From Nitrospirota bacterium (lineage in GTDB: Bacteria; Nitrospirota; Thermodesulfovibrionia; Thermodesulfovibrionales; Dissulfurispiraceae): a stretch of 39,411 nucleotides of DNA. How positions within the stretch are numbered: position 1 is the first letter of the stretch; each line of letters starts with the position of its first letter. The stretch lies in contig JADFXI010000014.1 in assembly GCA_015233655.1 (NCBI GenBank), positions 1-39,411 of the forward strand. The letters run 5' to 3'. The notes beneath the pieces are model-generated. The model searched no databases and was not told the DNA's origin. It was given only the letters and a program-made list of their open reading frames with translations. Position numbers and translations under genes: made by a program. This document shows, piece after piece, positions 11,740 through 14,398 of the stretch.

Positions 11740-12180
11740 CTACCTTCGCTGTGAAAGCGGTGCGACCGGCATTCTTTTCTTCTGCCAGACCGAAAAACCT
11801 TCCGAATAGATAGCTATGTTCGTATATCCTTCAAGCGCTGCCCTGTGCGCCCATTGCCTGCCCGTCTCGCCTTTCGCATTCGAGTAAACGACCAGGAGCA
11901 GATCCTTTTTACCTGGAAGGCGGTGCTTAAATATGTCGAAATCCTTCTCAGGTATGCTGATAGCGCTGAAAATATGAGCGTTGTCGTATGCCTCTTTCTC
12001 CCGTGCATCAATAACGGTAAATTGTTTTTCTCGCCCGCCTTCAAGCCTGTAGGCATTGTCCACTATCATCGAATGGAGCTGTGCGGTATCAATCTCCTTA
12101 AAATCTGACCCTGCCAAAGAACTTGAGACATAGACTAAAGTAAAAATAAGAAGCCCGGCCACTATTTTTTTAAAGTCCAT
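11740..12180 (-). CDS. Exported rhodanese-domain protein lacking the active-site cysteine
   Basis: A 146-residue protein with a signal peptide (MDFKKIVAGLLIFTLVYVSSSLAG) and one rhodanese domain: FTVIDAREKEAYDNAHIFSAISIPEKDFDIF, then LLLVVYSNAKGETGRQWAHRAALEGYTNIAIYSEGFSVWQKK. In active sulfurtransferases the loop after the fourth strand begins with the catalytic Cys (pattern VYCxxGxxS); here that position is Ser100 (VYSNAKGETG, codon TCG). It is therefore probably a non-catalytic periplasmic binding or regulatory domain. The start has no ribosome site; TAAAAT lies 6 bases before the ATG. The promoter and first 11 codons duplicate those of the nucleotidyltransferase gene at 15114. Confidence 0.82.
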   Translation of the reverse strand: MDFKKIVAGLLIFTLVYVSSSLAGSDFKEIDTAQLHSMIVDNAYRLEGGREKQFTVIDAREKEAYDNAHIFSAISIPEKDFDIFKHRLPGKKDLLLVVYSNAKGETGRQWAHRAALEGYTNIAIYSEGFSVWQKKRMPVAPLSQRR

Positions 12181-12302: not shown

Positions 12303-12337
12303 TTGACAAATATATTCAGAAATTGATATATATCAAT
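12303..12337 (+). promoter_or_regulatory. Promoter and ArsR-type operator of the arsR-VTT-methyltransferase operon
   Basis: TTGACA (12303-12308) and TATATA (12327-12332), spacer 18. A perfect 16-bp palindrome ATTGATATATATCAAT (12322-12337) covers the -10 box, the classical place and AT-rich form for an ArsR-family operator. The adjacent regulator gene very likely represses its own operon here until its ligand releases it. Confidence 0.75.
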
Positions 12338-12364: not shown

Positions 12365-12706
12365 ATGCTTTCATCAGGTCAGAAAATTGAGCTTTTAAAG
12401 GTCATCGCCCATCCGGTAAGAATTAAAATTCTAGAGGAACTCGCAAAAGGCGTGAAGTGTGTGAGCGATTTCGAGGAATTCCTGGAATTGCGTCAGCCTA
12501 ATATCTCACAGCATCTCGCCCTCCTCAGAGATCACGGCATCGTCGATTACTACATTGACGGAAGACTCAGATGCTATTTCCTTGTGGACCCTTTTGTGCC
12601 GGACCTTCTGGATTTGCTTAAAAAGGACTACCACCAGCTGCTTCCGAGGCCGGCTTGTTGTCCAGTAACAAAAAAAGGGGTGTACCCAGGTGACAGAAAA
12701 AAATAG
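12365..12706 (+). CDS. ArsR-family winged-helix regulator
   Basis: A 113-residue ArsR/SmtB repressor. The start at 12365 has GGAG 8 bases upstream; an in-frame TTG 6 bases earlier is less likely. The winged helix spans residues about 8-85 (ELLKVIAHPVRIKILEELAKG, then LRQPNISQHLALLRDHGIVDYYIDGRLRCYFL). Candidate thiol ligands are Cys in KCVSDF and a C-terminal ACCP pair, so a metalloid, heavy metal or reactive sulfur/selenium signal is possible; the ligand is not determined by sequence. It probably controls the two genes behind it (gaps of 18 and 18 bases) through the palindrome at 12322-12337. Confidence 0.9.
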   Translation: MLSSGQKIELLKVIAHPVRIKILEELAKGVKCVSDFEEFLELRQPNISQHLALLRDHGIVDYYIDGRLRCYFLVDPFVPDLLDLLKKDYHQLLPRPACCPVTKKGVYPGDRKK

Positions 12707-12724: not shown

Positions 12725-13447
12725 ATGGATCCTTTTACACGAAACCACGAATGGATATTTAAGTCTGCCATGAATCCAAAAAAGATATTGCTTATCGCAG
12801 TTCTTATGCTCGCGGGGGTGCTATTCTTCTATTTTGATCTGGGCAGATACCTGGCCCTGACCTCGCTCAAGAATAATCGCGTCATGTTGATGGATTTCTA
12901 TGAGCAACATAGATTGTTGATGGTTGTTATTTTTATTTCTGTCTATATTGCGCAGACAGCTTTTTCTCTCCCCGGTGCCGCAATCCTATCTTTGGGTGCG
13001 GGTGCCGTGTTTGGGACTTTAATGGGCGCTATATATGCCAATATCGGCGCAACCATCGGAGCGTCAATTGCTTTTCTGGTCACGCGTTATCTGTTTCATG
13101 ATTTAATCGCGAGCAGATTTGGGTCGCGCCTGCAGAAGTTAAACCAAGAACTCGAGACCCGGGGACTCAACTACCTTTTATTCCTGCGGCTTGTCCCGCT
13201 CTTTCCTTTTTTTCTTATAAATTTTGGCGCTGGTCTGACAAGAATGCCCTTACGGACCTTCTTTTTCGGCACGATGATAGGTATTATCCCCGGCAGTATC
13301 GTTTTCTGTAATGCAGGCTCAAGTCTTGCGACTATTACGGATGTAAGCCAGATTGCCTCACCACATGTGCTTGGCGCATTTACACTGCTAGGAATTTTTG
13401 CCCTTGTGCCGGTAATCTATCAAAAGATCAAGGGGACAAAACGCTGA
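12725..13447 (+). CDS. TVP38/TMEM64 family (VTT domain) membrane protein
   Basis: A 240-residue integral membrane protein. Segments: residues 20-37 (LLIAVLMLAGVLFFYF), 66-82 (LMVVIFISVYIAQTAF), the conserved re-entrant region SLPGAAILSLGAGAVFGTLMGAIYANIG and a Gly-rich helix, then FLRLVPLFPFFLINFGAGLTRM, and two C-terminal helices. The FLRLVPLFPF.L.N motif defines the VTT/DedA superfamily, proposed to move lipids or ions. An in-frame ATG at 12770 (MNPKKILLIAV) is a plausible alternative start; neither has a strong ribosome site. VTT proteins often accompany metalloid or mercury genes, which fits the ArsR neighbour. Confidence 0.85.
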   Translation: MDPFTRNHEWIFKSAMNPKKILLIAVLMLAGVLFFYFDLGRYLALTSLKNNRVMLMDFYEQHRLLMVVIFISVYIAQTAFSLPGAAILSLGAGAVFGTLMGAIYANIGATIGASIAFLVTRYLFHDLIASRFGSRLQKLNQELETRGLNYLLFLRLVPLFPFFLINFGAGLTRMPLRTFFFGTMIGIIPGSIVFCNAGSSLATITDVSQIASPHVLGAFTLLGIFALVPVIYQKIKGTKR

Positions 13448-13465
13448 CAGTCCGGAGGTATGCCA

Positions 13466-14398
13466 ATGTTAAAAGTGCATTTTTTCCTTAACGAACCGCA
13501 GGGCAAGACTTGAATGCATTTTGAAGAAATAATGCCCGGTCTGGGCAAAAAGTATGACCTAGAAATAGAGGTCACATCAAAACCAAGGCAGCATTACGGC
13601 ACTGCCGAGTATCTGGCGACGAACCTTCCAGCTGCACCGGCTATTGTGATAGGTGATGAGATTATCGTCAGCGGAAAAGACATCTCAAAAGAAAATCTTG
13701 AAGCCGCAATTTGCAGGCATATGGGAATAGGCGCCGGAGAGCACAAGCCGGAGCCGGAGGCAATGCATCTGCATGATGCAAATCACCAAAATCAAATAAG
13801 GTATAGGACTACGGCATTGTTCTACGATATTCTCGACTTCCCCTGGGAATTGCAGTACAAAAAATGGCGGCCTGCCTTGGTTGGCGATATGAAGGGGAAA
13901 GTGATTGAGGCAGGAATCGGTACCGGGCGCAACCTTAAATACTACTCCCCCGATGTCGATCTCACCGCTATAGATTTTAGTCCCTCAATGCTGCAACGTG
14001 CGAAGAGGCGGGCCGGCTATGCCAGATGCTCAGTCAACCTGATTTGTGAAGACGCCTGCCAGATGAAATCAATACCTTCCAGTCATTACGATTGGGTGCT
14101 GTCAACTTTCTTGTGCTGTGTCATACCGGCTGAACTTCAACATTTGGCAGTAGAACAATTTGTGAGGATACTGAAGCCGGGAGGCCGTTTCCGACTCCTT
14201 GAAATGGTCTATTCAAAGGACAGTGCCCTAAGAAAGAGACAGAACTTTTTCTCACGCTTTGTCGAAAAAGTATACGGGGCCCGGTTCGATCGGAATACCT
14301 TGAAACATGTTGAGAAGGCCAAGGAACTTGAAATAACCAGGACCGAGTTCCTGAAGCATGATGTCTACCTTATAATTGAGGGGATTAAGAAAGGATAG
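13466..14398 (+). CDS. Putative selenoprotein: thioredoxin-like domain with Sec (TGA 13511-13513) fused to a SAM-dependent methyltransferase
   Basis: The frame starts at ATG 13466 with GGAGG at 13454-13458 (7-base spacing), reads MLKVHFFLNEPQGKT, meets TGA, and goes on in the same frame without break for 294 codons (310 residues if TGA is Sec). Residues 1-90 look like a thioredoxin fold: strand LKVHFFL, redox loop ending in Sec16, helix MHFEEIMPGLGKKY, strand DLEIEV, and a cis-Pro segment PAAPAIVIGDEIIVSGKDI. Residues about 105-310 are a class I methyltransferase with SAM motif VIEAGIGTGRNLKYY, acidic LTAIDFS and post-motif ILKPGGRFRLLEMVY. The nearest ATG after TGA (13514) has no ribosome site. 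Substrate unknown; a thiol, selenol or metalloid is my guess. Alternatives are a Cys-to-stop mutation or a sequencing error. Confidence 0.72.
13533..13547 (+). promoter_or_regulatory. Candidate bacterial SECIS hairpin
   Basis: TGCCC-GGTCT-GGGCA forms a 5-bp stem with a 5-base GGTCT loop. The loop starts 24 bases after the TGA at 13511-13513. Bacterial SECIS elements are short hairpins right behind the UGA with a G-G-U apical loop; that of E. coli fdhF also carries GGUCU about 18 bases after the UGA. The element lies within coding sequence, as expected in bacteria. Confidence 0.65.

Follow-up and report, generated by a model that had tools for sequence, protein, structure and literature searches.

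Organization of the Locus

The window, that is, the whole stretch of 39,411 nucleotides that was analyzed, harbors three closely spaced genes for an ArsR/SmtB-family repressor, a VTT-domain membrane protein, and a protein that joins a TsoC domain to a methyltransferase and is very probably a selenoprotein (Table 1). All three lie on one strand with gaps of 18 bases and probably constitute an autoregulated operon. The palindrome of the candidate operator has no second copy in the window even if up to three mismatches are allowed (0.19 expected), and the combination of TTGACA with an A/T-rich dyad recurs, as judged by eye, upstream of the ArsR genes of many relatives.

Table 1. Features of the putative operon and of the tsoC-methyltransferase gene (positions in the window).
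Feature	Position	Strand	Description	Basis
Candidate operator-promoter	12303..12337	+	TTGACA 12303-12308, followed by perfect 16-bp palindrome ATTGATATATATCAAT 12322-12337	sequence
ArsR/SmtB-family repressor	12365..12706	+	first gene of the putative operon	Pfam HTH_5; NF033788
VTT-domain membrane protein	12725..13447	+	TVP38/TMEM64/DedA-like	Pfam VTT_dom 3e-28
Shine-Dalgarno sequence	13454..13458	+	GGAGG of the probable selenoprotein gene	sequence
tsoC-methyltransferase fusion gene	13466..14398	+	310 aa + stop, Sec very probably residue 16
TsoC domain	13469..13726	+	residues 2-87, predicted thioredoxin fold, NEPxGxxU motif, Pro58 loop	NF045708 match, model
In-frame TGA	13511..13513	+	very probably read as selenocysteine	TGA/Cys conservation in relatives
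SECIS-type hairpin	13533..13547	+	TGCCC-GGTCT-GGGCA, 5 bp, GGTCT loop	pairing, covariation, family statistics
Interdomain linker	13736..13765	+	predicted flexible	pLDDT < 50 at residues 92-96; alignment with separate genes
Methyltransferase domain	13763..14398	+	class I, SAM-dependent, residues about 104-310, conserved Cys188, Cys217, Cys218	Methyltransf_25, model

The product of the first gene scores 74 bits on NF033788 (cut-off 55), and its Cys32, Cys70, and Cys98-Cys99 region are conserved in close relatives. ArsR genes that are 57-73 % identical stand beside tsoC-like genes at many loci, and VTT genes are found directly downstream of tsoC at the loci L020, L028, L030, and L033. The window lacks TsoB, which usually neighbors TsoC; a rhodanese encoded there (11740-12180) reaches only 18 bits against the TsoB cut-off of 805, and the ArsR protein attains 32 bits on the TsoR model (cut-off 115). 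At L020, by comparison, the gene immediately preceding tsoC encodes TsoB (a rhodanese/DsbD selenoprotein; 955 bits), and the TsoR at L025 scores 154 bits. A standard Tso operon has tsoB (and tsoA) selenoprotein genes and TsoR as neighbors of tsoC. As neither TsoB nor TsoR occurs in the window by the curated cut-offs, the gene is a TsoC family member that lies outside such an operon.

The rhodanese-like protein that adjoins the operon on the minus strand is an exported one and has Ser (VVYSNAKG) at the position of the expected catalytic Cys. Elsewhere, a second type of tsoC-like locus (L084, L088, L089, L090, L095) combines a small Sec thioredoxin-like gene with the same type of ArsR as well as DsrE-like, SQR-like, TauE/SafE, and MMPL transporter genes, and thus represents a conserved sulfur-related selenoprotein cluster. 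Two tsoC copies lie close together in several relatives (L023, L025, L040/L076).

Probable Selenocysteine at Codon 16

Read base for base, the gene comprises 310 codons plus stop with the TGA in frame. It starts with ATG at 13466-13468, a further in-frame ATG at 13460 being disfavored as start because of its proximity to the GGAGG. The 15 sense codons that precede the TGA read MLKVHFFLNEPQGKT, and behind it the frame stays open for 294 codons until TAG at 14396-14398. All of these elements (GGAGG, ATG, 15 sense codons, TGA, and the subsequent open frame) had been described in an initial annotation of this DNA and match the sequence exactly; what it overlooked is that the 294 codons mostly encode a separate methyltransferase domain.

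A search with the N-terminal 91 residues against bacterial and archaeal genomes retrieved 18 relatives with 44-60 % identity. In each of the 17 close relatives that cover the site, the codon of residue 16 is TGA, embedded in the frame MLKVxFFLNEPNGxPU. A more diverse alignment of 37 rows shows TGA in 30 and Cys in seven rows of this column and no other residue, with N9, P11, G13, U/C16, and P58 as invariant columns. Cys-bearing TsoC-like copies include L049, L050, L052-L054, L063, L065, and L068. Alternation of Sec and Cys at one site is a classic sign of selenoproteins. The family model detects a relative in 46 of the 396 genomes that represent the phylum and in 27 of 176 genomes of the order.

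Could the TGA nevertheless be an ordinary stop that terminates a 15-codon leader peptide, followed by a separate 294-aa protein starting at the next ATG? An ATG indeed follows the TGA directly, and conventional gene prediction would yield this open reading frame. The leader, however, encodes strand 1 of the thioredoxin fold, and its 15 residues are conserved among relatives; the codon after the TGA is mostly Lys in relatives, which have no start codon there; Cys homologues continue straight through the site; and the hairpin behind the TGA covaries. Owing to the conserved first strand, the read-through homologues, and the covarying hairpin, the leader peptide model was rejected, its probability being close to nil. 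A sequencing error that turned TGC into TGA is likewise ruled out, since the TGA is conserved across many independent genomes.

Taken together, the TGA/Cys homologues, the hairpin statistics and covariation, the presence of tRNA-Sec, selB, and selD (see below), and the match to TsoC support the proposal of the initial annotation that this TGA encodes Sec. As it had anticipated for a selenoprotein, homologues have Cys or TGA in place of residue 16, and the peptide ahead of it is common to them as well, instead of their starting only at the later ATG. We thus assign a probability of about 93 % to the reading that UGA codon 16 encodes selenocysteine and that the gene at 13466-14398 is a selenoprotein. 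It clearly illustrates how the catalytic residue, together with the first strand of the fold, would be dropped by standard gene calling.

The SECIS-Type Hairpin

The hairpin noted previously is present in the sequence exactly as described, with 24 bases intervening between the TGA and the start of the GGTCT loop. The gene thereby has what is expected of bacterial selenoprotein hairpins, a conserved G at the beginning of the loop, roughly 16-37 nt behind the UGA. By itself, this single hairpin is not extreme (z = -1.6), so that support was drawn from the family. Here, hairpins with a G within the first two loop positions at roughly 16-37 nt were counted in 49 TGA- or Cys-bearing copies; this set was gathered with a pattern requiring U or C, and the absence of other residues at the site therefore rests on the 37-row alignment instead. 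Such hairpins occur in 38 of 42 TGA copies versus one of seven Cys copies, and resampling of synonymous codons for the 42 TGA copies (200 trials) gave 12.2 on average and never more than 25.

Covariation points in the same direction. In the register of the hairpin at 13533-13547, 98.9 % of cells are paired across 19 sequences and two pairs show compensatory change, with L042 displaying two compensatory double changes. A second register is supported in 11 more sequences (four pairs with double changes), and across the TsoC family, the hairpin is found in three or more registers relative to the gene, its loops being mostly of the GGU/GGC type. Rfam returned no match to a SECIS family for either the whole window or 13440-13640, only a tRNA and chance matches. 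In view of the family data, the hairpin is more than chance.

Selenocysteine Machinery of the Genome

The source assembly (3.29 Mb, 262 contigs, 84 % complete) encodes a tRNA-Sec with UCA anticodon, SelB (368 bits, cut-off 242), and SelD (316 bits, cut-off 125), the latter with its own in-frame TGA in a GUAAK motif and hence of the Sec type. The sel genes that the initial annotation had expected are consequently in place as far as selB, selC, and selD are concerned, but selA was not found in this incomplete assembly with two models, so that one of the refuting observations named in that annotation holds in part. Within the family, selA is present in 27 of 31 genomes and in all 22 near-complete ones; in the single genome of the same genus (81 % complete), selA was not found and selB did not exceed its cut-off either. 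Because of the 84 % completeness and the ubiquity of selA in near-complete family genomes, we read its absence as an assembly gap and not as a refutation, while still counting it against the Sec reading. The selB contig begins with a transposase-like ORF (L009:270-947) immediately ahead of selB, and selA may thus have been separated by rearrangement or by an assembly break.

The same genome also contains a 95-nt tRNA-Cys with GCA anticodon, U73, and a long variable arm (L002:1501-1595; G000:C202:12855-12945), which resembles the selC* tRNA-Cys class of anaerobes reviewed in PMC7609411. It is conceivable, albeit very improbable, that such a second, Sec-like tRNA-Cys decodes the UGA as cysteine with the help of SelB. 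The tRNA scores 52.6 bits on the tRNA-Sec model, above the cut-off of the latter, and the missing selA would fit this scenario. Under standard wobble, however, its GCA anticodon fails to read UGA; the genome also possesses a UCA tRNA-Sec, its SelD is itself a Sec-type enzyme, and selA is encoded by each of the 22 near-complete family genomes. Insertion of selenocysteine hence remains the preferred reading.

The TsoC Domain

The N-terminal domain is a member of the already catalogued TsoC family (NF045708, "NEPxGxxU motif selenoprotein TsoC"), a match that had escaped the initial annotation. With U entered as Cys, the protein scores 135.3 bits (cut-off 45), and reading through the TGA in a search of the genome gave 131.4 bits; the motif, including the in-frame TGA, is present as NEPQGKTU at residues 9-16. 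Tso denotes a three selenoprotein operon, and the cluster is described in PMC13188914, which lists TsoC without a stated function and, where it mentions the protein, credits it to Haft and Tolstoy 2025. TsoC is typically a stand-alone protein of about 90-110 aa, although this is not a requirement of the NF045708 model; the 310-aa fusion described here departs from this length.

The fold was judged on a domain-only alignment and model, since a full-length alignment split the C-terminal helix of TsoC across the methyltransferase. The model (pLDDT 91.4, pTM 0.81) predicts a strand-helix-strand-helix-strand-strand-helix arrangement with Pro58 ahead of strand 3 and residue 16 at the N-terminal end of helix 1, which bears out the earlier suggestion of a thioredoxin-like fold with the TGA just before the helix. 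The best fold matches in the PDB are thioredoxins, the arsenic chaperone ArsD (3mwh, 3kgk) among them, and are weak (E about 0.004-0.02), while the TsoC profile gave nothing significant against PDB sequences. A search of a plasmid collection by tblastn yielded spurious weak matches only. A role of the TsoC domain as an ArsD-like metallochaperone is conceivable, the fold match being a weak one. The cysteine cluster of ArsD is absent from the TsoC domain here.

Methyltransferase Domain and Fusion

The C-terminal domain scores 59.2 bits on Methyltransf_25 (Pfam cut-off 27), contains the glycine motif with invariant G150, G152, and G154, and is modeled with a pLDDT mostly above 90. Cys188, Cys217, and Cys218 are kept in 13 of 13 close relatives; Cys188 and Cys217 are lost in two outgroups. 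The closest fold is that of the phosphatidylethanolamine N-methyltransferase 8ys9.

At four related loci (L025, L057, L047, L067), a separate gene immediately downstream of the tsoC-like gene encodes the same methyltransferase with 54-66 % identity, and the fusion probably derived from adjacent genes of this kind. A Pro/Glu linker replaces the usual KKGxLGRLFGK tail and stop of TsoC. Within this linker, GGAGG (13756-13760) and an in-frame ATG (13763-13765) coincide with the start of the methyltransferase genes that relatives keep separate, so that internal initiation could possibly also yield free methyltransferase. Across the 176 genomes searched in the order, all other TsoC-like frames comprise at most 142 codons, and the phylum sample holds two other longer ones, of which G022 is due to upstream extension and G023 is a weak partial match. 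The methyltransferase and TsoC-like genes co-occur (9/15 versus 37/381 genomes; Fisher p 5e-6, uncorrected for kinship). Of the 12 close relatives of the methyltransferase that the phylum sample contains, nine have no tsoC-like gene within 1.5 kb; the enzyme thus functions in the absence of TsoC, too.

What is new here is the joining of TsoC to a methyltransferase within an ArsR/VTT operon, and it rests on one fragmented assembly. One may hence ask whether the TsoC domain is correctly assigned but the fusion is an assembly artefact of what are really two genes, as in L025. The short length of all other TsoC-like frames in the order, the origin of the contig from a 262-contig, 84 %-complete assembly, and the GGAGG and ATG exactly where separate methyltransferases begin would be in line with this scenario. 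We nonetheless regard it as improbable, since the frame runs on without interruption through a Pro/Glu linker of natural appearance, which takes the place of the KKGxLGRLFGK tail and stop instead of simply displacing them. A genuine fusion is a strong genomic hint of the functional partner of TsoC, a methyltransferase that some relatives encode next door.

Possible Function

According to the proposed mechanism, SelB and tRNA-Sec, guided by the hairpin just behind the UGA, would insert Sec at codon 16, a step supported by comparison. The product is very probably a two-domain enzyme in which TsoC, with one Sec for redox chemistry or ligand binding, is coupled to a class I SAM methyltransferase. 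The selenolate may capture or reduce a soft substrate, be it a metalloid, an organometal, or a sulfur or selenium species, and the fusion suggests that substrate or electrons could then be handed to the attached methyltransferase, the conserved cysteines of which may bind the substrate, too; confidence in this carrier mechanism is low. Presumably, the ArsR protein would sense the same chemistry via its cysteines and derepress the operon. The most likely role is thus that of a Sec-based carrier or reductant for the methyltransferase to which it is attached, in an operon that would respond to thiols, metalloids, or sulfur. The ArsR and VTT neighbors held in common with relatives make the TsoC pathway testable.

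As to the substrate, the ArsR family and the conserved cysteines are compatible with metalloids and sulfur alike. That the operon deals with reactive sulfur (persulfide, sulfide) and not with metal(loid)s, the Sec domain acting as persulfide reductase or carrier and the methyltransferase generating methyl-thiol or methyl-selenol, is a serious contender, if somewhat short of even odds. Related loci carry rhodanese/DsbD (TsoB), DsrE-like, sulfide:quinone-reductase-like, and TauE/SafE genes, and the conserved Cys residues fit as well. None of these sulfur genes of relatives lies within the operon of the window itself, however, and the rhodanese nearby has Ser for the expected catalytic Cys. A further point in favor of sulfur is that the regulator reaches 48.7 bits on the model of BigR, a sulfite/sulfide sensor, if under the cut-off of 155; a function as SqrR/BigR-type persulfide sensor was considered and may apply, with this score under the cut-off. 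Its Cys pattern is only partly like that of such sensors.

A stricter version of the carrier role, in which a soft metalloid or chalcogen species bound by the selenolate of TsoC passes directly to the fused SAM enzyme, appears rather unlikely. The methyltransferase domain is nearer to phospholipid N-methyltransferases than to arsenite methyltransferases, which counts against the proposed function, and it misses the NCBIfam cut-off for the arsenite methyltransferase ArsM (19.2 bits versus 263). If true, such direct transfer would make the protein a single-chain selenoprotein for detoxification or volatilisation under an ArsR-type sensor and tie the uncharacterised Tso family to methylation chemistry.

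Comparison with Known Systems

The protein resembles TsoC (NF045708) in the NEPxGxxU motif, the Sec position, the domain length, the SECIS-type hairpin, and the Sec machinery of the genome. It differs from TsoC in being fused to a methyltransferase and lacking the KKGxLGRLFGK tail, and its locus differs in that TsoB is not alongside and the ArsR neighbor is not TsoR by curated cut-off. With thioredoxins and ArsD, the TsoC domain shares the predicted fold, but it has a single Sec in GxxU and no CxxC. Phospholipid/phosphoethanolamine N-methyltransferases (8ys9, 5wp5) and CpaM are nearest to the C-terminal domain by both sequence and fold; the scores, however, stay under the curated cut-offs, and the domain here has the additional conserved Cys188/217/218. 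Finally, a Sec module is likewise combined with a class I SAM methyltransferase in MduS (NF045649), ArsM/AhpD (NF041537), ArsM/DUF2284 (NF041536), and MTase/UXPK-star (NF047649), on whose models the protein scores about 18-27 bits against cut-offs of 380-575; in contrast to these, the Sec module here belongs to a different family, namely TsoC.
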